Positions 5,053-17,782 of a stretch of DNA of 17,782 bases are shown here, in pieces (within the stretch, counting starts at the first letter, position 1; each line of letters begins with the position of its first letter). The notes beneath the pieces were generated by a model. It was not told where the DNA came from. It made no database searches and saw only the letters and a program-made list of their open reading frames with translations. The position numbers and the translations under genes are program-made. The stretch spans positions 1-17,782 of the forward strand of contig URGY01000015.1 of NCBI GenBank assembly GCA_900547505.1, given 5' to 3'. The DNA comes from an uncultured Collinsella sp. (GTDB lineage: Bacteria; Actinomycetota; Coriobacteriia; Coriobacteriales; Coriobacteriaceae).

Positions 5053-8000
5053 TCACGCTTCGCCCCAGAATCTATGGTTGTTGCGCAGGAGCTGTGCGGT
5101 TTTGTTCTCAGCGGCTGCAATGTCCGCCTCGTCAGCCTGCCAGGTCCAGTTGCCCGTGGCCACGCCCGGAACGTTCATGCGCGCGTCGTCGCCCAGCCCC
5201 AGGACATCCTGCAGCGGCATCATCACCAGGGGAGCGTCGCTCGCCAGCGCGTCGCTCATCAGCTTGGCCGCCACCTCAACACCGCTCGGTTCATCGCCGC
5301 CCGCAAAGGAACGTGTGCACCAACCGGCCAGCGTCGACGTATCGTGCGTCGAGGTGTACAGAATCTTGCCGGGCGTGGGATGCACACCGCAGCGAACGTC
5401 GTAGTCGCTAAACTCCAGCACGTCCATGCCGGGGAAACCACAGGTCGAAGCCATGGCGCGAACACCGGGCGTCAAATAGCCCAGGTCCTCGGCGATAAAG
5501 TTGAGCGGACCCAGCTCGTCGTAGGCGGTCTGGAACAGGTCCTTGCCCGGGCCCGCCAGCCAGCGACCGTCGGCGCAAGCCTTGCCCGCGGGGATACTAA
5601 AGTAGCTGTGGAATCCCAGGAAGTGATCCAGACGCACGCGGTCGTAGAGCGAAAACGCACGACGCAGGCGATCCATCCACCAGCTATAGCCGTTCTGCTT
5701 CATGTGGTCCCAGCGGAACGTCGGGTTGCCCCACACCTGGCCCTCGGGCGCAAAGTTGTCGGGCGGCGCACCGGAAATCTCGATCGCCTTGCCGGTATCG
5801 GACAGCCAGAAGTTCTCGGGTTCGCTCCACGCGTCTGCCGAATCGTCGGACACGTACATAGGAATATCGCCGATGACCTCGATGCCCTTCTTGTGCGCAT
5901 AGTTCATGAGCTCGCACCAAGCCAGGTCAAAGCGGTACTGCATGTACGCCTGCAGCTCGGCCTCGTTGTGGAAGCGCTTGTCGTCGATCAGATGCTCGTT
6001 GTATCGCGCGACATCTTCCGGCCAATCATGGCGCGACTCGCCCTCAAAGTACTTCTTAACGGCCATGTAGACGCAGTATTTCTCGAGCCAATCGGCATTG
6101 CGATGTTTAAACGCGGTGTACAGTGGATCGGCATCCTCGCCTCCGCGGGCCTTCCAGGTCTCAAAGTCGGCTGCCAGCTCCTCGTGACTCTCGGGCAGCA
6201 GGTCGATGTTGCCCGCAAAAGCCGAGGGTCCGGCATAGGGGGAGCGAAAGAAATCCGTTGGGTTGACGGGCAGGACCTGCCAGTAGCGCATGCCCATGGC
6301 GGCCAGATGGTCGATAAATCGCCGCGTGGGCGCGCCGATCGTACCGGGCTTGCCGTCGTCGGTCGGCACCGATGTGATATGGCACACAACACCCGCACCG
6401 TGATCGAGCGGCTCCTGCAGGCGCTGCTCGGCATGGTGATAGATTATCGACGAGCCCAGCGGATACAGGTCGAGCGTGACCGTGCCGTTGTGAATTTCGC
6501 ACTCGTGACCGCTGATCACGTCGCTTGCACATTCGCCGAGCGCCGGAATCGTCACACGGTGCGAGTTGCGCAGGCTGCGGTTGATGATAACCGTCGCAGA
6601 CTCGCCGTCCTTGCCCGTACGGTTGTAAGCAAGCACCTCATCATTGAGCGCGAAGGCCTTGATCTCGCCATCGATCATAAACGGCAGCGCGCGGCGCACA
6701 GCAGATGCGTTCTTGACGATTGCGAACGTATCGAAGTCGTGCAGGTCTTCCTTGGTCGGCATGGTGCGGCGATTACCCGGATCGGTCAGGCCCTCAAGGC
6801 CGTACTCGTCGCCATAGTAAATCGAAGGCACACCGGGGAACGTCATCTGCATGAGCGTCGCGAGCCAAAAACGACTCTTGGCCAGGCCCATCGAGTTCTC
6901 GTCCAGGCGCCATTTGCTGCGCTCGCACTCGGGCAGCTGCGACTCGTCGGGGCCGCCGCCGAGCACCGAGATGATGCGCGGACGGTCGTGGCTCGACAGC
7001 AGGTTGAGCGCGCAGGACAGGGCCTCACGCGGATAGTTCTCGCGTAGGGTCTCGATATCCTCGGCAGCTTGGTAGGCGTTTTTGTAGCCCATCAAAAAGC
7101 CGATGACCATGTCGCGGAAGGGGTAATCCATAGCAGAGTCCAGCTCGGAGCCCTGCAGGTAGCGACGCAGATGGCCGTAGCTGATCTTGTTGGAGGCATC
7201 TTCCCAGACCTCGCCGAGCAGCAGCGCGTCGGGCTTCTCGGCGAGTACGGCCTTTTTGATCTCGGTCAGGAAGTCATCGGAAAGCTCGTCGGCCACATCC
7301 AGGCGCCAGCCGTGAGCGCCGGCGCGCAGCCATTTACGAATAACGCCGTCCTTGCCCAGGAGCCGCTCGCGTACCAGTTCGGAGCTCTCATTGATGGCGG
7401 GCATATTGCCCACGCCCCACCAACAGTCGTACGAGCCGTCCTCGTGGAAATAAAACGCATCACGCCACGGCGAATCCTCGCTCTGCCACGCGCCCACACC
7501 GGGGTAGTTGCCGTAGCGGTTGAAGTAGATCGAATCATCGCCCGTGTGGTTGAACACACCGTCCAGAATGATGGAAATGCCCAGCTTCTCGGCCGCCTCG
7601 CACAGCTCGGTAAAGTCTTGCTCGGTGCCCAGAATCGGATCGATCTTGGTGTAATCGGCGGTGTCGTAGCGGTGGTTGCTCGCGGCTTCAAAAATGGGGT
7701 TGAGGTAGATGGCTGTAAAGCCCAGCTCGGCGATGCGAGGCAGGTCTTCCTGGATGCCCTTGAGCGAGCCGCCGTAGAAGTCCCAGGTCTTGATGGAGCC
7801 GTCCTCGGCGCGCTCGTACACAGGCGGCTCGTTCCAGTCCTCGACCATGCGGCGCTGAATGCCCTTACGCGGTTTTTCGACCTCGGCCAGCGTGCGCTCG
7901 CGCCAGTGCTCGTCGCGGGCATAGCGATCGGGGAAGATCTGGTAGACCATACCGCGCTCGTACCAGGTGGGACGGTTCTCACGGTGTTTGTAGACGGTGA

Positions 8001-8349
8001 CCTGGAATGACGGCACCTCAGCGTAGTCGTAGGTTAAGCCTTCGCCGCCGGTGCGGCCCTGTGGTGCGCCCAGGCGGACCTCGGGCTGGCCCTCGATATT
8101 GCAGATGAAGCTGTACCAGATGAGACAGGGCTCGGTGCACTCAAGCTCTACGGTAAATATGCCGTCGCCCTCGTGCGTCATGGGATACCGAGACTCACCG
8201 ATCTCATCGACCCAGGTGCGCAGCGTAAGCGTTGCCTGGTTGGGGTCGGCATCCTCCAGAATCACGGAGAGCGAAAGGGTAGTTCCTGTGGTCACAGCGC
8301 CAAACGGAGTGCGAAACTGCGGCAGACGGCTGTTGTGTATCAATCTCAT
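5053..8349 (-). CDS. GH13-GH77 fusion: alpha-amylase/pullulanase-type hydrolase fused to 4-alpha-glucanotransferase
   Basis: This 1098-residue protein joins two complete enzymes. Residues about 1-120 form a beta-rich N-domain like those of neopullulanase/cyclomaltodextrinase. Residues about 130-635 form a GH13 domain with DGVFNH (region I), GWRLDVADE (nucleophile Asp351), LLGEVWED (acid/base Glu380) and SSHDRPR (Asp455). Residues about 645-1098 form a GH77 amylomaltase (MalQ/DPE) with RYWQVLPVNPTDFFRSPYAG, GDIPMYVSDDSADAW, RLDHFLGF (nucleophile Asp908), IAEDLG (acid/base Glu954) and STHDTSTLAGW (Asp1003). No signal peptide is visible, so it is probably cytoplasmic. It likely trims or debranches glycogen outer chains and disproportionates maltodextrins; the exact GH13 specificity is an inference. 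It lies downstream of glgA with its own 430-bp upstream region. The ribosome-binding site before the ATG is weak (GGAC). Confidence 0.93.
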   Translation of the reverse strand: MRLIHNSRLPQFRTPFGAVTTGTTLSLSVILEDADPNQATLTLRTWVDEIGESRYPMTHEGDGIFTVELECTEPCLIWYSFICNIEGQPEVRLGAPQGRTGGEGLTYDYAEVPSFQVTVYKHRENRPTWYERGMVYQIFPDRYARDEHWRERTLAEVEKPRKGIQRRMVEDWNEPPVYERAEDGSIKTWDFYGGSLKGIQEDLPRIAELGFTAIYLNPIFEAASNHRYDTADYTKIDPILGTEQDFTELCEAAEKLGISIILDGVFNHTGDDSIYFNRYGNYPGVGAWQSEDSPWRDAFYFHEDGSYDCWWGVGNMPAINESSELVRERLLGKDGVIRKWLRAGAHGWRLDVADELSDDFLTEIKKAVLAEKPDALLLGEVWEDASNKISYGHLRRYLQGSELDSAMDYPFRDMVIGFLMGYKNAYQAAEDIETLRENYPREALSCALNLLSSHDRPRIISVLGGGPDESQLPECERSKWRLDENSMGLAKSRFWLATLMQMTFPGVPSIYYGDEYGLEGLTDPGNRRTMPTKEDLHDFDTFAIVKNASAVRRALPFMIDGEIKAFALNDEVLAYNRTGKDGESATVIINRSLRNSHRVTIPALGECASDVISGHECEIHNGTVTLDLYPLGSSIIYHHAEQRLQEPLDHGAGVVCHITSVPTDDGKPGTIGAPTRRFIDHLAAMGMRYWQVLPVNPTDFFRSPYAGPSAFAGNIDLLPESHEELAADFETWKARGGEDADPLYTAFKHRNADWLEKYCVYMAVKKYFEGESRHDWPEDVARYNEHLIDDKRFHNEAELQAYMQYRFDLAWCELMNYAHKKGIEVIGDIPMYVSDDSADAWSEPENFWLSDTGKAIEISGAPPDNFAPEGQVWGNPTFRWDHMKQNGYSWWMDRLRRAFSLYDRVRLDHFLGFHSYFSIPAGKACADGRWLAGPGKDLFQTAYDELGPLNFIAEDLGYLTPGVRAMASTCGFPGMDVLEFSDYDVRCGVHPTPGKILYTSTHDTSTLAGWCTRSFAGGDEPSGVEVAAKLMSDALASDAPLVMMPLQDVLGLGDDARMNVPGVATGNWTWQADEADIAAAENKTAQLLRNNHRFWGEA

Positions 8350-8779: not shown

Positions 8780-11080
8780 TTAGCGGCGCTTGCGGGTGGC
8801 AGTTGCCTTGCGGACGGAGGTCTTCTTGGTCGGGGCCTTTTCCTCGACCGGAGTGGCGGGGGAGACCGGGGCCTCCTTGGCGGGCTTGGGCTTGGCCTTT
8901 ACCTCGGCCTTGGGCTCCTCTTTGGCGGCAGCAGGCTTGACCTCGGCGGCCTTCGGCGCCGGCTTGGCCTTTACTGCGGGCTTGGCCTCGGCCTTAGCCT
9001 CCGCCTTTGGAGCAGCAGCCTTGGTCGTGGTCTTTTTGGCCGTCGTCGCAGTGCGCTTGCGCGTGGTGGTCTTGGCGGCCGGCTTGGCCTCGACGGTTGC
9101 CTCAGCATTGGACTCGGCGGGCGTCTCCTCGACTTTGGCGGCCGGCTTTGCGGCTGCCTTGGTCGTGGCGGGCTTCGCGGTCGTTGACTTGGTTGCCGTG
9201 GTCTTCTTGGCTGCCGTTGACTTTTTGGCGGTCGTGGTCGCCTTCTTAGCAGCGGTCTTTGCCGGAACCTTGGCGGCCGGCTTGGCCACGGCGACCTCGG
9301 CCTTTACCTCGGGAGTAGCCTCGGCTTCTGCGGCCTTCTTGGCAGCGGCGGTCGTGCGCTTGCGCGTGCTCGTTGTCTTGGCAGCGGTGGTCTTTGTTGC
9401 CGCCGCCTTGGTCGCTGTGACCTTCTTGGCCGTCGTCTTACGAGTCGCGGTCTTCTTAACTGCGGGCTTGGCCTCGGCCTTTGCCTCAGGAGCAACCTCA
9501 GCCTTCACCTCAGGGTCGGCCTTTGCGGGCTCAGCTTCAACCGGCTTCTCCTCGGCCTTGGGCTCCGACTCAGCAACAGCCTCAGACTCGTCGACAACCG
9601 CCGTCGGCCTTTCAATCTCTGGATGCATAAAGAAGTACAGGTCCAGATACTTGTCGGCCGAGCGCGTCCAGCTAAAGTCCTGGCTCATAGCCTGCGTGAC
9701 CAGCTGGTTCCAGGCCTCGCGGTTGTCCCAGAACAGGCGGGCCGCGCGGAACACCGCGTCGCCCATCTCGTCGCCGTTAAAGTTGCTAAACGAGAAGCCC
9801 GTTCCCTCGCCGGTAAACTCGTTGTACGGGATCACGGTGTCCTTCAGGCCGCCGGTCTCGCGCACGATGGGCAGGGTACCGTAGCGCATGGCGATAATCT
9901 GCGACAGGCCGCAGGGCTCAAACTTCGAAGGCATCAGGAACATGTCGGCGGCAGCATACATGCGCTGCGACAGTGCCGGATCGAACTCGATGCGAGCCGC
10001 CATGGTGCCGGGGTACTTGTCCTGGAAGTAGCGCAGGCCGTCCTCGTAGTCGCGGTCGCCGGTGCCCAGCACCGCCACCTGCACGCCGCCGGCCAGGATG
10101 CGGTCGAGCGCGTACATGACCAGGTCTAGGCCCTTCTGGCGCGTCAGACGCGTGACCATCACCATGAGCGGACGGTCGTCGCGAACCTCGAGCCCCAGCT
10201 CTTCCTGCAGCTTGGCCTTGCATACGGCCTTGCCGGAACGGTCCTCCACGGTGTAGTTGGCGGCAATGCGCTTGTCGGTCGCCGGGTCAAAGCCCGCGAC
10301 GTCGATGCCATTCAAAATGCCCTGCAGCGCGTACGAACGCTCGCGCAGCACGCCGTCCAGGCCCTCGCCAAACTCGGGCGTCTGGATCTCGTTGGCATAG
10401 GTAGGGCTCACCGTGGTGATGGCGTCGGCATAGCGCAGCGCGCCCAGCATGTAGTTGATGCTGCAGGCGTCGCAACGCAACTGCGAGGCGGCCGCAGGAA
10501 TATGCGCCACACCCAGGATGTCCTCCATCACGGTGTCGCTAAACTGGCCCTGGAACGCCACGTTGTGGATCGAGAACACGGTCTTAACGCGGTCATACAG
10601 CGGCAGGCCCTGGTAGAACTCGCGCAAAAACACGGGCGCCAGCGCCGTCTGCCAGTCGTTGCAGTGCAGGATGTCGCACTCAAAGCCGGCCGGCAGGTGC
10701 TGCAGGCTCTCGGTGATGGCCTTGGAGAAGAACGCAAAGCGCTCGCCGTCATCAAAAAAGCCGTACGGATAGTCGCGCGCAAAGTAGCGCTCGTTGTCGA
10801 TGAACATATAGGTGACGCCGTCGTGCTCGAGTTTCTCGAGTCCGCAGTACTCATTGCGCCAGCCCAGGCTAACGTAAAAGTCGGAGAAGTGCTCCATCTG
10901 CGCCTTGTACTCGTCCTTGATGGTGGCATACTTGGGCACCATCACGATGACTTCGGCGCCGGCGCGCACAAGCGCCGCAGGCAGCGAGCCCGCCACGTCG
11001 CCCAAGCCACCGGTCTTCACAAACGGTGCGCACTCGGCCGAGGCAAACACGATCTGCATCTTTTTGCTGGAATCAGCCAT
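8780..11080 (-). CDS. glgA: Glycogen synthase (GT5) with a histone H1-like C-terminal tail
   Basis: GlgA adds glucose from ADP-glucose to the non-reducing ends of glycogen chains. The catalytic part covers residues 1 to about 490 and is a full GT5 synthase: KTGGLGD (22-28, ADP-glucose binding), HCNDWQTA, FEPCGL (Glu388, equivalent to Glu377 in E. coli) and ETGGL. About 270 further residues follow. They begin acidic, become rich in Lys, Ala, Thr and Pro with AAKK/TAKK repeats and TRKR boxes, and end in RKRR. Usual bacterial GlgA stops at about 480 residues, so the tail is a large extension. The start at 11080 has GGGAG 5 nt upstream; the in-frame ATG at 11092 has no ribosome-binding site and would add MGDN. 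It is the last gene before the operon terminator. Confidence 0.95.
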   Translation of the reverse strand: MADSSKKMQIVFASAECAPFVKTGGLGDVAGSLPAALVRAGAEVIVMVPKYATIKDEYKAQMEHFSDFYVSLGWRNEYCGLEKLEHDGVTYMFIDNERYFARDYPYGFFDDGERFAFFSKAITESLQHLPAGFECDILHCNDWQTALAPVFLREFYQGLPLYDRVKTVFSIHNVAFQGQFSDTVMEDILGVAHIPAAASQLRCDACSINYMLGALRYADAITTVSPTYANEIQTPEFGEGLDGVLRERSYALQGILNGIDVAGFDPATDKRIAANYTVEDRSGKAVCKAKLQEELGLEVRDDRPLMVMVTRLTRQKGLDLVMYALDRILAGGVQVAVLGTGDRDYEDGLRYFQDKYPGTMAARIEFDPALSQRMYAAADMFLMPSKFEPCGLSQIIAMRYGTLPIVRETGGLKDTVIPYNEFTGEGTGFSFSNFNGDEMGDAVFRAARLFWDNREAWNQLVTQAMSQDFSWTRSADKYLDLYFFMHPEIERPTAVVDESEAVAESEPKAEEKPVEAEPAKADPEVKAEVAPEAKAEAKPAVKKTATRKTTAKKVTATKAAATKTTAAKTTSTRKRTTAAAKKAAEAEATPEVKAEVAVAKPAAKVPAKTAAKKATTTAKKSTAAKKTTATKSTTAKPATTKAAAKPAAKVEETPAESNAEATVEAKPAAKTTTRKRTATTAKKTTTKAAAPKAEAKAEAKPAVKAKPAPKAAEVKPAAAKEEPKAEVKAKPKPAKEAPVSPATPVEEKAPTKKTSVRKATATRKRR

Positions 11081-11103
11081 ATTGTCTCCCATGTTGTTAT
11101 TCG

Positions 11104-11170: not shown

Positions 11171-12298
11171 TTAACGCACGATCGTGGTATCGGAGGTTAA
11201 CGGAGCCTTTCCCAGCACCAGGATATTCTCGGGCGTGCCGCGAAGCTCGGTGTTGGTGGGAACCACGTTGTTCTTGTCCAGGATGGCATTCTCAACACGG
11301 GCGCCACTCTTGATGATGCAGCTCTGGTTGATGATCGAGTTGGTCACCGAGGCTCCTTCCTCGACCACAACGCCGCGCGACAGGATCGAGTTGCGCACGG
11401 TGCCCTTGATGATGCAGCCGGCCGAGATGATCGAGTTACACGCGTGGCTGCCGGTCGCATAGCGCGAAGGCGGCACGTCGTGAGCCTTGGTCAGGATCGG
11501 GCGCTCGGGATCGAAGAGCTGGTCGGCCACGGTCTGGTCGAGCAGGTCCATGCTGCGGCGATACAGCGACTTTTCGCTAAACACGCCCACGACCTCGCCC
11601 TTGTACTCGTAGCTGCACACATCGATGTTGCCAAAGTCGCCCTGGAGTGCCTCGAGCAGGTCCAGATAGTCGGCGGCCTGGTAGTGGTCGATGATCTCGA
11701 GCAGCGTCTCGCGGTTGACGATGCAGCAGTCCATGGAGGCGTTGTCGCCGTACACGACGCCGGCGCTCACGCCCGTCAGGCGGCCGTTCTCGTTAATTTC
11801 GAGTTTGGTCTCGTCATCGACGTTGTGCGTGGCCTTGCAGTACACCACGGTCATCTGGGCACCGGAGTTCTCGTGCGCGTCGATGATGGTGTTGAGGTCC
11901 ATGTTAAAGATGATGTTGGTGCCCATCATCACAACATAGGGCTTGTCAGAGCGCTGGAAGAGCGTCTTGTTGGAGATGATGTCGCGCAGCAAGAAGCGCA
12001 TGCCGCCCTTGGTGGTGCCATACGCGTTGCCGGGCACCATGAACAGGCCGCCCTTCTTGCGGTCCAGGCCCCAGTCCTTGCCCGAGCCCACGTGGTCGAT
12101 CAGCGAGCGGTAGTTGCCCGGCATGACGACGCCGACGGTCTTAATGCCGGCATTCATCATGTTGGACAGCGGGAAGTCGATCAGGCGGTAGCGGCCCAAA
12201 AACGGAACGGACGCGATGGGGCGGTCCTTGAGCAGCACGCTGCCGTAGGTCGAAGAGTAGTTAGCGGTGATATAACCGATGGCCTTGCGATTGATCAT
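11171..12298 (-). CDS. glgD: GlgD, degenerate (regulatory) subunit of ADP-glucose pyrophosphorylase
   Basis: The 375-residue protein has the same fold plan as GlgC: a nucleotidyltransferase domain (1 to about 245) and a C-terminal left-handed beta-helix. It keeps RYRLIDFPLSN, which resembles [10 protein letters not shown] in GlgC. It lacks the nucleotide-binding GGxGSRL loop, having ITANYSSTYGS instead. Where GlgC has SGDHLYRMD, it has GTNIIFNMD, so the catalytic Asp (GlgC Asp128) aligns with Asn128. This is typical of GlgD proteins of Gram-positive bacteria, which form mixed complexes with GlgC and change its activity. The start at 12298 lies 4 nt after the glgC stop with a GGGGGA Shine-Dalgarno 8 nt upstream. 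A longer in-frame start at 12337 would overlap glgC and lacks such support. Confidence 0.93.
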   Translation of the reverse strand: MINRKAIGYITANYSSTYGSVLLKDRPIASVPFLGRYRLIDFPLSNMMNAGIKTVGVVMPGNYRSLIDHVGSGKDWGLDRKKGGLFMVPGNAYGTTKGGMRFLLRDIISNKTLFQRSDKPYVVMMGTNIIFNMDLNTIIDAHENSGAQMTVVYCKATHNVDDETKLEINENGRLTGVSAGVVYGDNASMDCCIVNRETLLEIIDHYQAADYLDLLEALQGDFGNIDVCSYEYKGEVVGVFSEKSLYRRSMDLLDQTVADQLFDPERPILTKAHDVPPSRYATGSHACNSIISAGCIIKGTVRNSILSRGVVVEEGASVTNSIINQSCIIKSGARVENAILDKNNVVPTNTELRGTPENILVLGKAPLTSDTTIVR

Positions 12299-12302
12299 CG
12301 GA

Positions 12303-13451
12303 TCATTCCCCCTTCCCGATAACGACGTCATTTCCAACGACGGCCGTATCCTTGGTGGTATCGACAGAGCCGAGCTTCACGCCCTCTTCGACCGTGGAGT
12401 TCTCGCCCAAAATAGCGCGGCAGATGTGCGCACCGCTCTTAACGTGCGCACCCGGCAGCAGCACGGAGTCCTCGACCACGGCGCGCTCCTCGATAATGAC
12501 ATCGGTCGAAAGGATCGAGTGGCGAGCGGTGCCGTAGATCTTGCAGCCGTTGGAGACCAGGCAGTCGTCCAAGCGACCATCCGGACCAATGTAGTGCGGC
12601 GGACGCGTGGTGATGTTGGACATGATGGGGAAGTGCTTGTCAAACAGATCGAACTCGGGGTTGTTGCCCAGCAGGTCCATCGAGGTCTCGTGGAAGCTGG
12701 CGATGGTGCCGACGTCCTTCCAAAAGCCGTGGAACTCGTAGCTGTACAGGCGCTTGCCCTCGCCGAGCAGCTTGGGGATGATGTCCTTGCCAAAGTCGTG
12801 GCTCGAGCGCTGGTCCAGAGCGTCCTCCTTGAGCGCCTCGATCAGCACGTCTGCCGAGAAGATGTAGATGCCCATGGACGCGAGGTTCGAATCGGGCTTA
12901 TCGGGCTTCTCGGTGAACTTGGTGATGCGGCCGTCCTCGGGGTCGGTGGTCAGGATGCCAAAGCGGCTGGCCTCCTCCCACGGCACGGGCATAACGCTCA
13001 CCGTGAGGTCGGCGTTGTTCTCAATGTGCGTCTTGAGCATCTTGCGGTAGTCCATGCGATACAGGTGATCGCCCGAAAGAATCAGGACATACTTGGGGTC
13101 GTTGGCCTTGATGTAGTCAAGGTTCTGCGTGATGGCGTCTGCCGTGCCCGCATACCAGGCACCGCCGGTCTGCGTTTCGTACGGCGGCAGGATCGACACA
13201 CCGCCGTCGCGGCTGTCCAGATCCCATGCCTCTCCGGAGCCCACATAGGCATGCAGCAGGTAGGGGCGATACTGCGTCAGAACGCCCACCGTGTCGATGC
13301 CCGAGTTGGAGCAGTTGGAGAGCGAGAAGTCGATAATGCGGAACTTGCCACCAAAGCTAACCGCCGGCTTGGCGATCTTTTGGGTGAGTGCCCCCAATCG
13401 GCTGCCCTGTCCTCCTGCGAGGAGCATCGCGATGCATTCTTTCTTACTCAT
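12303..13451 (-). CDS. glgC: Glucose-1-phosphate adenylyltransferase (ADP-glucose pyrophosphorylase), catalytic subunit
   Basis: GlgC makes ADP-glucose from ATP and glucose-1-phosphate, the committed and usually allosterically controlled step of glycogen synthesis. The 382-residue sequence is intact: GGQGSRL (13-19, nucleotide loop), [15 protein letters not shown] (28-42), GTADA (102-106), [10 protein letters not shown] with catalytic Asp128, and FTEKP with Lys182, which corresponds to the glucose-1-phosphate Lys195 of E. coli. The C-terminal hexapeptide-like beta-helix follows from about residue 280. An AGGAG ribosome-binding site precedes the ATG. glgD follows after 4 nt, so the pair is co-translated, which fits a GlgC-GlgD hetero-oligomer. 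Confidence 0.97.
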
Positions 13452-13491
13452 CGATTTCTCCTTCTGTCATCGATGTTCTTAAACCCATTAG

Positions 13492-13522
13492 CGACGGGCG
13501 TGGCGCAACGTCGCGCCCGTCG
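13492..13522. repeat. Hairpin in the glgP-glgC gap
   Basis: A perfect 9-bp GC-rich stem (13492-13500 with 13514-13522) with a 13-nt loop lies in the 108-bp gap between glgP and glgC. There is no T run on the minus strand, so it is more likely an mRNA processing or differential-stability element than a terminator. Confidence 0.55.
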
Positions 13523-13559
13523 AGTAATGCCGTGCTGGCATAGGGGAGCTCGCGCGCCT

Positions 13560-15986
13560 TTACGCGTGCCAGATCTCGTCGCGGTACTCGCGAATGGTGC
13601 GGTCGCTCGAGAACCAGCCGCTCGAGGCGGTGTTGAGCAGGGCCTTGCGGTTCCAGTTCTCCTGGTCGCCGTAGCTGTTCGTGAGCGCCTCCCATGCATC
13701 CACGTAGCTGCGGAAGTCGGCCATGACCAGGTCGGGGTCGTTGTTGTTCATGAGCTCGTTGTAGATGCTCTCGAAGTTGCCCGAAAGACCCGCAAAGGTG
13801 TTGTCCTTGAGCTCGTCCATCACGCGGCCCAGGCGCTCGCGGTCGCCGTTGAGCGTATCCCACGCAAAGTAGCTGTTGGATGCCCAGAGCTGCTCGACCT
13901 CGGGGGCGGTCAAGCCAAAGATGGCCTCGTTCTCGCGACCTGCAAGGTCGGCGATCTCGATGTTGGCGCCGTCGAGGGTGCCCAGCGTAATGGCGCCGTT
14001 CATCATGAGCTTCATATTGGACGTGCCCGAGGCCTCCTTGCCGGCTGTGGAGATCTGCTCCGAGATCTCGGCGGCGGGGTAGATGAGCTGGGCGTTGCTC
14101 ACGCGGAAGTTGGGGATAAAGCAGACCTTCATGACCTCGTTGACGCGCGGGTCGTTGTTGATGACCTCAGCGACGGAGTTAATGAGGCGGATGGTCTCCT
14201 TGGCAAAGGTGTAGCTCGAGGCAGCCTTACCGCTAAAGATGAAGGTCGTCGGCGTCACGTGGAAGTTGGGATCGGCGATGCGACGGTTGTAGATGTCCAT
14301 CACCTTCATGATGTTCATGAGCTGGCGCTTGTAGGCGTGGAAGCGCTTCACCTGGACATCGAAGACGGTGTTGGGGTCGATGACCAGACCGGTCTCGGCC
14401 TTGACGTAGGCGGCCAGACGCTCCTTGTTGGCGCGCTTGGAGGCACCCACGGCCTTCAGGAACTCGGTGTCGTTCTGGAACTCCTTGAGCTTTTCCAGCT
14501 CAAAGGCGTCCTTGAGCCAGCCATCGCCAATGGCCTCGGTGACGAGCTTGGCATAGGTGGGGTTGGCCTCGGCAAAGAAGCGACGGTGCGAGATGCCGTT
14601 GGTCTTGTTGTTGAACTTCTCGGGCGTCAGGGCATAGAAGTCCTTGAGCACGATGTTCTTGATGATGTCGGAGTGGATCTTGGCCACGCCGTTGACGCTA
14701 TGGCTGCAGATCACGGACAGGTTGGCCATGCGAATCTCGCCGTCCCACAGGATGGCGGTCTGGCGCAGACGCTCCTGCCAGCCCTCCTGCGTGGTGTCAA
14801 AGGACTCGTGCCAACGACGGCTGATCTCGTCGATGATCTGGTACACGCGGGGGAGGAGCTTGGAGAACGTGCCGATGGGCCACTTCTCCAGAGCCTCGGG
14901 CAGGATGGTGTGGTTGGTGTAGCTCACGACCTGCGTCACGATGTTCCAGGCGTCGTCCCACTCGAGCTTCTTCTCGTCGATGAGGATGCGCATGAGCTCG
15001 GGGCCGCACATGGCGGGGTGGGTATCGTTGGTATGGATGGCCACAAACTGCGGCAGCAGCTCCCAGTTCGCGCCGTGCTCCTTCTCAAAGGTGTCGAGCA
15101 GGCTGTAGATGCCGGCCGAGACAAACAGGTACTCCTGCTTCAGGCGCAGCAGGCGGCCGTGCTCACCGGCGTCGTTGGGGTAGAGGATGGCGCTGATGGC
15201 CTCGGCCTCGGCGCGCTCGGCATCGGCCAGGGCGTAGTTGCCGCGGTTGAAGGCCTCCAGATCGAAGTGCTCCTCGACCGGCTCAGCGGCCCAGACGCGC
15301 AGCTTATTGACAGTCTCGCCGGCATAGCCCACCACGGGGATGTCATAAGGGACGGCCAGGATATCCTGCGTGTCCACCGTGCGGTAGAACGTGCGGCCGT
15401 TCTCCTCAAAGCCCTCTACACGGCCACCAAACTTGATGGTCACGGCCTTGTCCTGACGACGGACCTCCCAGGGATAGCCGTGGGTGAGCCACTCGTCGGT
15501 GGCCTCGACCTGGCTGCCGTTGACGATCTCCTGCTTAAACAGGCCGTAACGGTAGCGCATGCCGTTGCCGTAGCCGGCAATGCCCTCGGCTGCCATGGAA
15601 TCCAGGAAGCATGCGGCCAGACGGCCCAGGCCACCGTTGCCCAGCGCCGGATCGGGCTCCTGGTTCTCGATGACGGACAGGTCAAAGCCCATGTCGTCGA
15701 GCGCCTTGGCGACCATGTCGCGCACGCCAAAGTTGAGCAGGTAGTTGTCGAGCAGGCGGCCGATCAAAAACTCGATCGAGAAGTAGTACACGCGCTTTTT
15801 GCCCTCGGCCGTGGCGCGGGCGTCACTCTTGGTGGCAACGGTGCGTGCCTTCTCGGCCACGAGCTTGGCCAGGGCGTTAAAGCGGTCGAGGTCGCTCGCG
15901 GCCTCGACGCTCTTGCCGCTGATGCTCATGACGGCATCGCGATAGAGCTCGGTAAACTCCTGCTTGTTGTCGAAGATCTTATTCAT
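13560..15986 (-). CDS. glgP: Glycogen/maltodextrin phosphorylase (GT35)
   Basis: The enzyme phosphorolyses terminal alpha-1,4 bonds of glycogen, giving glucose-1-phosphate, and needs pyridoxal phosphate. At 808 residues it has normal length. Characteristic stretches are ALGNGGLGRLAACF, TNDTHPAMCGPELMR, and the cofactor signature EASGTSNMKLMMNGA with PLP-binding Lys659, followed by GTLDGANIE. A Shine-Dalgarno AAGGA lies 5-6 nt upstream of the start. It follows glgB with a 94-bp gap containing a small GC hairpin (16041-16055) and precedes glgC by 108 bp. A breakdown enzyme therefore sits inside the synthesis operon, which implies flux is set by allostery or cofactor levels rather than by opposite transcription. 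Confidence 0.96.
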   Translation of the reverse strand: MNKIFDNKQEFTELYRDAVMSISGKSVEAASDLDRFNALAKLVAEKARTVATKSDARATAEGKKRVYYFSIEFLIGRLLDNYLLNFGVRDMVAKALDDMGFDLSVIENQEPDPALGNGGLGRLAACFLDSMAAEGIAGYGNGMRYRYGLFKQEIVNGSQVEATDEWLTHGYPWEVRRQDKAVTIKFGGRVEGFEENGRTFYRTVDTQDILAVPYDIPVVGYAGETVNKLRVWAAEPVEEHFDLEAFNRGNYALADAERAEAEAISAILYPNDAGEHGRLLRLKQEYLFVSAGIYSLLDTFEKEHGANWELLPQFVAIHTNDTHPAMCGPELMRILIDEKKLEWDDAWNIVTQVVSYTNHTILPEALEKWPIGTFSKLLPRVYQIIDEISRRWHESFDTTQEGWQERLRQTAILWDGEIRMANLSVICSHSVNGVAKIHSDIIKNIVLKDFYALTPEKFNNKTNGISHRRFFAEANPTYAKLVTEAIGDGWLKDAFELEKLKEFQNDTEFLKAVGASKRANKERLAAYVKAETGLVIDPNTVFDVQVKRFHAYKRQLMNIMKVMDIYNRRIADPNFHVTPTTFIFSGKAASSYTFAKETIRLINSVAEVINNDPRVNEVMKVCFIPNFRVSNAQLIYPAAEISEQISTAGKEASGTSNMKLMMNGAITLGTLDGANIEIADLAGRENEAIFGLTAPEVEQLWASNSYFAWDTLNGDRERLGRVMDELKDNTFAGLSGNFESIYNELMNNNDPDLVMADFRSYVDAWEALTNSYGDQENWNRKALLNTASSGWFSSDRTIREYRDEIWHA

Positions 15987-16080
15987 ACGTTCCTTTCCCC
16001 CGGGGATGTTTCTCCCGGAACGGTTATGACATGTATCCTACGCCCCCGCGGGGCGGGTAATTGCAGTGGTAACGCCTTTG

Positions 16081-17733
16081 TTACGCTTTTTTGGCAGGAG
16101 CCTTTACGGCAGCTGCCTTGGCCTTGGGAGCGGCCTTTTTGGCAGCCGGCTTCTTGGTCGCGGTAGCCTTTGCAGCGGGCTTTGCGGCAGCCTTAGTTTT
16201 GGCCTTGGCGGTGGGCTTTGCAGCCTTCGCCTTAGCCGGAGCCTTCTTAGCGGCTGCGGGCTTAGGCTTTACCGAGGACGAGCGCTTGCGCGTCGCCTTC
16301 TTGGGCTCCTCGACCACGGGCGGCTTATAGCTGCTGGGACCGCGGCGCTTAAGCACCACGCCCGCCAAGCCGGGCACCTTAATCTCGATGGAGTCCATCT
16401 GCCCGTTCCAGGGATAGGGCTCGCTCGAGCAGGTGTAGGGCTCCTCACCGGCGTATCCGCTGCCACCGAACTCGGGACGGTCGGAATCAAAGATGACCTC
16501 CCAGTCACCCTCGCGTGGCACGCCCACGCGGAAGCTCTCATAGCTCGCCGGGTCAAAGTTGATCAGGATCACCAGGTCGTCATCGACGTCCTCGCCCTGG
16601 CGCACAAAGCTCACGATGGACTGCTTGGAGTTATCCGCGTCAATCCAGGTAAAGCCGTCGTCGGTGTAGCCGCGCTCGTACAGGGCGGGCTCGGCGGTGT
16701 ACAGGTGGTTGAGCGCCTTGATGAACGCCTGATGATGACGGTGGGTCTCGTACTCCTCGGTCAGGAACCACTGGATGGACTCGTAGTAGCGCCACTCAAT
16801 AAACTGGCCGATCTCGTTGCCCATAAAGTTGAGCTTGGCACCGGGGTGCGTCATCTGGTAGAAAGCCAGCGTGCGTAGGCCGGCAAACTGGCGCCACCAG
16901 TCGCCCGGCATGCGGCCGATGAGCGAGCACTTGCCGTGCACGACCTCGTCGTGGCTCAGCGGGCAAATGAAGTTCTCGGTGAAGGCGTACATAATAGAGA
17001 ACGTGAGCAGCCCGTGGTTGCCGGGGCGCCACGGAAAATCGGTCTGCATGTAGTGGAGGGTGTCGTTCATCCAGCCCATGTCCCACTTGTAGTGGAAGCC
17101 CAGGCCGCCGTCCTGCGGCGGGTAGGTCACGAGCGGCCACGCGGTGGACTCCTCGGCCATCATCATCACGTCGGGGTAGTGGGCCTCCACGGCGCAGTTT
17201 ACCTGGCGGATAAACGCGCTGGCGTCCAGGTCCTCCTCGGTACCGTACTTGTTGAACTTCTTTTGGCCGGGGTCGTCGATACCAAAGTTGAGGTACAGCA
17301 TGCTGGACACGCCGTCCATGCGAATGCCGTCTACGTGGAAGTTTTCGAGCCAGTACAGCACGTTGGAGACCAGGAAGGAGCGGACCTCGCCGCGGGCGAA
17401 GTCAAACTTGTGCGTGCCCCAGTTGGGGTGAATCTCGTGCTCAAACAGCATGTGACCGTTAAAGGTGGCAAGGCCGTGGGAGTCGGCGCAAAAACCGCCG
17501 GGTACCCAGTCCATGATCACGCCGATGCCAGCCTCGTGGCACGCATCGATAAAGTGCATGAGCTGCTGCGGGTTGCCGTAGCGCGAGGTGGCGGCGTAGT
17601 AGCCGGTCGTCTGGTAGCCCCAGGAGCCATCGAAGGGATGCTCCATGAGCGGCATGACCTCGATATGCGTGTAGCCCATGTCGCGCACGTAGTCCACGAG
17701 CTCCACCGACAGGTCGTCGTAGGTGTAGAACTC
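16081..17733 (-). CDS. glgB: 1,4-alpha-glucan branching enzyme with Lys/Ala-rich tail (5' truncated)
   Basis: GlgB cuts alpha-1,4 chains and re-attaches them as alpha-1,6 branches. The 550 visible residues start inside the GH13 barrel; the N-terminal CBM48 domain is lost at the contig end. Seen are MEHPFDGSWGYQTTGYYA, GIRMDGVSSML (nucleophile Asp, codon 17314-17316), MAEEST (acid/base Glu) and PLSHDEVVHGK (Asp, codon 16948-16950). Region I reads DWVPGGF, with Gly (codon 17494-17496) where the family normally has His (DWVPGHF or DWVPAHF). After the usual beta-sandwich end (LAGVVLKRR) comes an 86-residue tail (16081-16341) rich in Lys, Ala and Pro, with ATRKRSSS. The tail resembles that of GlgA in this operon. 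The apparent Met start preceded by MYKRQ is adapter sequence. Confidence 0.95.
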   Translation of the reverse strand, partial: EFYTYDDLSVELVDYVRDMGYTHIEVMPLMEHPFDGSWGYQTTGYYAATSRYGNPQQLMHFIDACHEAGIGVIMDWVPGGFCADSHGLATFNGHMLFEHEIHPNWGTHKFDFARGEVRSFLVSNVLYWLENFHVDGIRMDGVSSMLYLNFGIDDPGQKKFNKYGTEEDLDASAFIRQVNCAVEAHYPDVMMMAEESTAWPLVTYPPQDGGLGFHYKWDMGWMNDTLHYMQTDFPWRPGNHGLLTFSIMYAFTENFICPLSHDEVVHGKCSLIGRMPGDWWRQFAGLRTLAFYQMTHPGAKLNFMGNEIGQFIEWRYYESIQWFLTEEYETHRHHQAFIKALNHLYTAEPALYERGYTDDGFTWIDADNSKQSIVSFVRQGEDVDDDLVILINFDPASYESFRVGVPREGDWEVIFDSDRPEFGGSGYAGEEPYTCSSEPYPWNGQMDSIEIKVPGLAGVVLKRRGPSSYKPPVVEEPKKATRKRSSSVKPKPAAAKKAPAKAKAAKPTAKAKTKAAAKPAAKATATKKPAAKKAAPKAKAAAVKAPAKKA

Positions 17734-17782
17734 CTGTCTCTTATACACATCTCCGAGCCCACGAGACTACGCTGCATCTCGT
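17734..17782 (-). other. Illumina Nextera i7 adapter, inverted copy (not genomic)
   Basis: This is the exact reverse complement of bases 1-49: mosaic end (17734-17752), read-2 segment (17753-17767), the same 8-base index (17768-17775) and the P7 end. Genomic sequence stops at 17733. The glgB truncation here is a contig-edge effect. Confidence 0.97.

Follow-up and report, generated by a model that had tools for sequence, protein, structure and literature searches.

What is a long, histone H1-like tail doing on an enzyme that makes glycogen? The question is raised by a contig of an uncultured Collinsella sp. (URGY01000015.1), analysed here over its full 17,782 nucleotides (the window), in which the glycogen synthase gene glgA runs on far beyond its catalytic domain. 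An earlier note on this DNA had remarked on the extension and proposed that a flexible polycation could tether the enzyme to nucleic acid, polyphosphate or phosphorylated glycogen. We find that the tail is a genuine part of GlgA in Collinsella, that its charge is kept while its sequence drifts, and that GlgB, the branching enzyme of the same operon, carries one too. We tentatively favor a role in anchoring glycogen to nucleic acid.

A complete glycogen synthase continues into a lysine-rich tail

The window's glgA, recognized by its open reading frame and profile matches (8780..11092, minus strand), encodes 770 amino acids followed by the stop codon. Residues 12 to 486 matched the GlgA model NF001898 with 658.9 bits (cut-off 603) and TIGR02095 matched with 542.8 bits (cut-off 328.45), so that by both curated models the protein is a full-length bacterial GlgA of the GT5, ADP-glucose type. 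As the best models stop at residue 486 and AlphaFold2 confidence is mostly above 90 up to about residue 489, we assigned residues 1 to 496 (9605..11092, minus strand) to the catalytic part. Among the nearest solved structures are those of ordinary bacterial GlgA and of plant starch synthases (2qzs, 1rzu, 4hln), which share the GT5 part. Their matches stop at query residues 487–490, and none of the three covers what follows. A GlgA chain usually stops soon after its catalytic part, whereas here 274 further residues are present.

This tail extends from residue 497 (nucleotide 9604) to residue 770 (nucleotide 8783) and has a net charge of +33, in agreement with the earlier description of a complete GT5 domain followed by about 270 extra residues. 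It is composed of ten residue types (79 A, 56 K, 44 T, 30 E, 25 P, 20 V, 9 R, 8 S, 2 D, and 1 N), and F, I, L, M, W, Y, C, H, Q, and G are all absent from its 274 positions. The tail thus has the trait that marks H1-like and lysine-repeat segments, a long stretch rich in K, A, P, and T and free of bulky residues. The commonest spacings between its lysines are 4 and 5. In successive 30-residue steps, its charge is −7, +4, +9, +1, +8, −1, +7, +5, +3, and +4. The stretch described as preceding the K/A/T repeats is therefore acidic, but mainly over the first 30 residues (497–526, 9515..9604, minus strand; net −7), which we call the acidic lead-in. The internal duplications reported earlier were recovered, with PEVKAEVA at residues 527 and 594, EAKAEAKPAVK at 536 and 698, and TRKRT at 576 and 677, and RKRR does form the last residues of the chain.

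Disorder prediction, which the earlier note had suggested, was carried out with AlphaFold2. Using 16 aligned sequences, the core was mostly above 90 and confidently modeled to about residue 489, while beyond residue 500 the ten-residue means fell to 22–33 and the model contained no secondary structure. The tail is thus predicted to be intrinsically disordered from about residue 490.

The tail is in frame in related genomes and keeps its charge

One explanation for so unusual an extension would be a mis-assembly joining two genes near position 9600, or a frame open by chance. We found no such joint: the tail is in frame in all 20 copies compared from the C. aerofaciens group (the window and 19 loci), with lengths of 214–303 amino acids in the unit of that comparison, from which L018 was excluded, its contig stopping within the tail. 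These copies rule out both mis-assembly and a chance frame. The tail is also found on GlgA of C. tanakaei, C. provencensis, and C. phocaeensis (the scan of named genomes comprised 36 loci). The best 120 of 7,961 scored proteins are all 732–792 amino acids long, a length that implies a tail.

Within the C. aerofaciens group, the tail and the core evolve differently. Identity across the 20 copies is 80% in the tail versus 98.5% in the core, and the ratio of nonsynonymous to synonymous substitution (dN/dS) is 0.25 versus 0.039, the tail value being rough because it comes from a low-complexity alignment. Across the same tails, lysine makes up 18.8%–20.9% of residues and the net charge lies between +23 and +41. 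The letters of the tail drift fast, and its charge and lysine content are kept. A natural swap experiment is provided by the GlgA tail of locus L148 (genome G171): lysine (6%) is outnumbered there by arginine (11%) and by serine, yet the net charge is +22.

Two regional features recur among the 46 tailed GlgA proteins of the class-wide survey described below. In 39 of them, the first fifth of the tail has a negative net charge, and in 45 at least three of the last eight residues are K or R. A loose SVSAARK/SVRK-like end motif, composed after the ends had been viewed, is present in 36. Conservation within the tail is highest at these last residues, which in the window correspond to the basic end TSVRKATATRKRR (residues 758–770, 8783..8821, minus strand).

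The branching enzyme carries a basic tail as well

In the window, glgB (16081..17748, minus strand) is truncated at its 5′ side by the contig end. Its product finishes with a lysine-rich tail of 89 amino acids and net charge +28 (16084..16350, minus strand). The earlier note overlooked this tail, which is more widespread in the class than that of GlgA.

To count tails across Coriobacteriia, we required at least 25 residues, a K+R content of at least 15%, and a net charge of at least +5. A GlgA match above the family cut-off was present in 83 of 197 class genomes. The analysis covered 80 stretches surrounding such matches, each no longer than 20 kb; a few further matches above the cut-off, mostly C. 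aerofaciens-like, lie outside these stretches. The 105 Coriobacteriia loci with GlgA reduced to 96 distinct loci, of which 88 were counted. The count was limited to operon-type loci (GlgA score at least 600) and, gene by gene, to chains whose 3′ end is closed and not truncated at a contig boundary; eight loci with a GlgA score below 600 stayed outside it (L074, L075, L081, L097, L100, L134, L135, and L152).

A basic tail was present on 80 of 84 GlgB and on 46 of 86 GlgA proteins, but on 0 of 86 GlgP, 0 of 88 GlgC, 1 of 88 GlgD, and 0 of 83 fused amylase-MalQ enzymes. The lone GlgD tail (L078, 111 amino acids) is W-rich and unlike the K-rich tails, and we took it to be a frameshift rather than a true tail. 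Within the operon, the tails are restricted to the two polymer-building enzymes, GlgA and GlgB. Counted GlgA tails span 57–331 amino acids and net charges of +7 to +46, and GlgB tails 27–270 amino acids and +5 to +37. Since the definition itself demanded at least +5, the positive charge of counted tails is no evidence on its own. Where both 3′ ends were closed, 45 loci had both tails, 35 had only the GlgB tail, 3 had neither, and 1 had only the GlgA tail. In the three loci with neither (L087, L096, and L131), GlgB still ends with 15–19 residues of net charge +4 to +6. Two uncounted loci speak against a tail on every GlgB of the class, as GlgB of L075 (8 amino acids) and L135 (67 amino acids, net −5) ends without a basic tail; including both gives 80 of 86.

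In the comparison of GlgA across Coriobacteriia, which the earlier note had proposed, 40 of the 86 class members lack such an extension. GlgA proteins of sister lineages do end near residue 495, as the note had envisaged if the tail belonged to another gene, but we found no tail gene directly downstream of them: the next gene begins 3 (L126) or 54 (L133) bases past the stop codon, a result that concerns the adjoining sequence and not a free-standing tail gene elsewhere in those genomes, for which whole genomes were not searched.

In a GlgA tree made by a quick method from 94 rows, with L002–L018 left out, the distribution of the GlgA tail needs two changes, one for a 35-row group around Collinsella (Shimodaira-Hasegawa-like approximate likelihood ratio test support 98) and one for a separate Atopobiaceae row, L025. 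For comparison outside the class, we hand-picked 20 GlgB proteins of other Actinomycetota from 123 genomes above the cut-off. None of the 20 had a basic tail: 19 end 2–11 residues past the core, and the remaining one adds a G-, S-, and P-rich stretch of 48 residues that contains no lysine. Because the GlgB tail occurs in more of the class than the GlgA tail and in none of these 20, it is probably the older trait, to which the GlgA tail, a lineage-specific gain, was added in the Collinsella-like lineage.

Two further sets of loci were noted. In L132, L138, L144, and L147, GlgB tails of 116–270 residues accompany a GlgA without a tail. In L074, L081, L097, L100, and L134, a second, divergent GlgA is tail-less, and no other glg gene was found in the stretch.

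The GlgA and GlgB tails stand out in a sampled Collinsella genome, and topoisomerase I ends in a similar one

We ranked lysine-rich low-complexity segments among 3,959 six-frame open reading frames of at least 90 amino acids, most of which are not genes, from one related Collinsella genome, covered by 60 evenly spaced 20-kb stretches (1.2 of 2.306 Mb) together with the glg locus. With a score of 77.3, the GlgA tail came first, followed by the GlgB tail (29.3) and the next segment (19.6). A proteome-wide Collinsella habit of adding such tails is ruled out for the sampled half; topoisomerase I (TopA), encoded outside the sample, is also tailed.

Collinsella TopA, examined in C. tanakaei and a Collinsella-like genome (L238 and L239), has at its C terminus some 45 residues of TAKKTTAKK-type repeats. 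In the genome sampled above, the GlgA and TopA tails have five 6-mers in common, a number reached by none of 1,000 shuffles; the first TopA stretch compared included some residues ahead of the tail proper. According to parts of a review (PMC7398561), lysine repeats are carried in Streptomyces by the DNA-binding proteins TopA, HupS, Ku, and HrdB, and occur in mycobacteria too, and the repeat tail of actinobacterial topoisomerase I raises processivity on DNA. These tails, on topoisomerase I, HupS/HupB, and Ku, are of the same kind and from the same phylum as that of GlgA, while their carriers are DNA enzymes or DNA-binding proteins. The same source describes the C-terminal domain of actinobacterial TopA as being without zinc fingers. 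TopA of both L238 and L239 keeps, besides its lysine-repeat end, cysteine pairs that resemble zinc fingers.

A possible anchor between glycogen and the nucleoid

Several bacterial storage granules are positioned by proteins with similar ends. PhaF and PhaM place polyhydroxyalkanoate (PHA) granules on the nucleoid, as described in portions of PMC13052382 and PMC3556143, and, like GlgA and GlgB, join a part for a storage polymer to a histone-like C-terminal part. They differ in being dedicated granule proteins, in serving a polyester rather than glycogen, and in that DNA binding has been reported for them, whereas that of GlgA and GlgB is putative. In Pseudomonas aeruginosa, a KPAA-rich tail of AlgP is needed for the even spacing of polyphosphate granules, according to excerpts of PMC9239181. 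This tail, like that of GlgA, is disordered, C-terminal, and rich in K, A, and P, but it has 25 perfect KPAA repeats plus variants and acts with polyphosphate, not glycogen. The GlgA tail has no such dense array, as its 274 residues contain four scattered KPAA and are richer in T and E. The lysine-rich C-terminal part typical of PhaF, PhaM, and AlgP is thus present in both GlgA and GlgB, which would be built like a granule-to-nucleoid tether; we draw this as an analogy and do not claim membership. For glycogen, part of an Escherichia coli study (PMC4836754) reports that in a csrA mutant GlgA-GFP and glycogen collect at the old pole with the chromosome excluded. Such polar accumulation is a problem that a nucleoid anchor would solve.

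Since the charge of this flexible polycation on a glycogen enzyme is conserved, a tether, as the earlier note proposed, is the natural reading. Among its suggested partners, nucleic acid is favored because similar lysine repeats occur on topoisomerase I of the same bacteria. A requirement for polyphosphate is not supported (see below). Together, the lysine repeats of DNA-binding proteins, the granule placement by PhaF, PhaM, and AlgP, and the polar glycogen of E. coli lead us to think that the tails may be disordered polycationic anchors on nucleic acid, with the catalytic domain on glycogen, such that granules would form on and spread with the nucleoid. We regard this as a real possibility that falls somewhat short of being probable. 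The GlgA catalytic domain would stay on the growing polymer, while its tail would bind nucleoid DNA, or possibly RNA, a polyanion that is always present, without sequence specificity. The GlgB tail would act likewise, and many tails per granule could fix the granule to the nucleoid. Granules would then start on the chromosome, be kept apart, and be shared between daughter cells. The acidic lead-in may keep the active site clear of the tail or make contact with the tail of GlgB. We infer the DNA binding, the position of the granules, and any benefit to the cell from the parallels above, and the polymer-binding part of GlgA from the known substrate of the enzyme.

Several points weigh against this reading. 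Lysine-rich tails bind many polyanions, so their sequence cannot single out DNA, and DNA binding alone does not predict the association of GlgB tails with PPK1 described below. The class can do without a tail on GlgA, since 40 of its 86 GlgA proteins are tail-less. GlgA is the polymerase itself, which the dedicated proteins AlgP and PhaF are not. The likeness to TopA is also uneven: in C. tanakaei, the GlgA and TopA tails have two 6-mers in common, which 38 of 1,000 shuffles reached, and the GlgB and TopA tails had no common 5-mer in either of the two genomes compared.

If the anchoring idea is true, the granule-to-nucleoid principle known for PHA and polyphosphate would extend to glycogen, and glycogen inheritance could be tested by removing a single tail, with the sister lineages that lack the GlgA tail as natural controls. 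A class of common gut bacteria appears to bear anchoring tails on the polymer-building enzymes themselves. The placement and inheritance of bacterial glycogen seem little studied: a 2025 review on the positioning of bacterial organelles (PMC13052382) has no occurrence of glycogen. In the portions of the open-licence PubMed Central literature covered, no account of GlgA or GlgB with tails of this kind appeared. The first 300,000 characters of a review of alpha-glucan enzymes (Chem. Rev., PMC11046441) contain no mention of Coriobacter, Collinsella, lysine-rich, disordered, or tail, and a single "C-terminal extension," on nucleotidyltransferases. GlgA, GlgB, and histone-like tails are each already known; their combination on glycogen enzymes seems to be new.

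Alternative partners and roles

The tails could bind polyphosphate instead, linking the glycogen and polyphosphate stores or regulating the enzymes through lysine-polyphosphate interaction. Lysine-rich stretches do bind polyphosphate (portions of PMC12077175), and the similarly tailed AlgP sits on polyphosphate granules (PMC9239181, in part). We found PPK1 in 52 of 67 genomes searched. Among genomes with a countable GlgB, all 50 that have PPK1 carry the GlgB tail, compared with 11 of the 15 that lack PPK1 (Fisher p 0.002); the tail has a median net charge of +20 in the first group and +12 in the second (p 0.004). Both comparisons are uncorrected for kinship, many PPK1-less genomes are small, and some genomes may be incomplete. 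However, PPK1 was not found in 4 of 27 GlgA-tailed genomes (G155, G173, G185, and G003), where PPK2 was not found either, and thus a requirement for polyphosphate is unsupported. Of the 15 PPK1-less genomes, 14 gave no PPK2 match either, and in 12 at least one of GlgA and GlgB is tailed, with GlgB tails that include some of the most highly charged (G131, +37; G178, +29; G119, +27). Given the correlation of GlgB tails with PPK1, polyphosphate is a live rival, although an unlikely one. In a different alternative, the acidic lead-in of GlgA would pair with the basic GlgB tail, and GlgA tails with one another, so that electrostatic co-assembly would gather synthase and branching enzyme into one condensate or granule with nucleic acid unneeded. 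The negative first fifth of most GlgA tails fits this idea, as does the finding that the depth of the lead-in tracks GlgB tail charge (Spearman −0.65 over 27 tailed GlgA rows; −0.53, p 0.035, in a thinned set of 16). With independent contrasts the relation weakens (r −0.35, p 0.077; permutation p 0.067; expected sign in 16 of 26), and 35 loci combine a tailed GlgB with a tail-less GlgA, so the GlgB tail needs no GlgA partner. We consider co-assembly rather improbable.

Anchoring to nucleic acid must also be set against roles that involve no positioning of granules. The tails might hold RNA or ribosomes, as a polycation would take RNA as readily as DNA, or regulate the enzymes through modified lysines and R-K-x-T sites, and TRKR[ST]-like sites recur in the tails of both GlgA and GlgB; we judge this quite unlikely. 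They might also be near-neutral low-complexity appendages, expanded by slippage of repeats in GC-rich DNA and tolerated owing to their C-terminal position. The wide length range and fast evolution of the GlgA tails are what such growth would give, and direct repeats are visible at the DNA level. Frame or charge should then often be lost, yet all but four of the 84 GlgB proteins keep a basic tail; GlgP, GlgC, and amylase-MalQ of the same operon lack tails; and lysine content is nearly constant, with a tail dN/dS that, for all the roughness of its alignment, is 0.25. We therefore give this explanation little credence. An equally doubtful idea makes GlgA and GlgB H1-like nucleoid proteins that partly replace HU, such that the carbon store would directly set chromosome compaction and the nucleoid would be united with glycogen in a single body. 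Coriobacteriia appear to be almost without an HU-fold protein, as the HU/IHF family PF00216 matched in a single genome among 119 from the class of G142 and in 0 of 43 in another search, compared with 9 of 14 control genomes. This result is at odds with a 2017 paper that assigns Coriobacteriia an HU of clade HU_acti_0 (PMC5683647).

Among 65 Coriobacteriia genomes with GlgB, four (G070, G084, G173, and G181) have a GlgB end that falls short of the tail definition, and all four were without PPK1.

Neighboring genes and other features of the window

The tailed genes lie in an operon-like row on the minus strand, in the order glgB, glgP, glgC, glgD, and glgA. Open reading frames and profile matches identified glgP (glycogen phosphorylase, 13560..15986), glgC (ADP-glucose pyrophosphorylase, 12303..13451), and glgD (an ADP-glucose pyrophosphorylase subunit, 11171..12337), as well as glgB. 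After glgA and a gap of 430 bases, also on the minus strand, comes a gene for a fused alpha-amylase-type enzyme and 4-alpha-glucanotransferase (amylase-MalQ, 5053..8349). GlgP, GlgC, GlgD, and the fused amylase-MalQ enzyme are without tails.

On the plus strand, a frame of 1,295 codons is open from 12279 to 16166, antisense to glgP, glgC, and the end of glgB; we take it to be a by-product of GC-rich coding on the opposite strand. Both ends of the window carry adapter-like sequence. An identical 49-base sequence ending in agatgtgtataagagacag, which we take to be a Nextera transposase adapter, occupies positions 1–49 and 17734–17782. These ends create false starts, such as MYKRQ, in the terminal open reading frames, among them the GTG start listed for GlgB.

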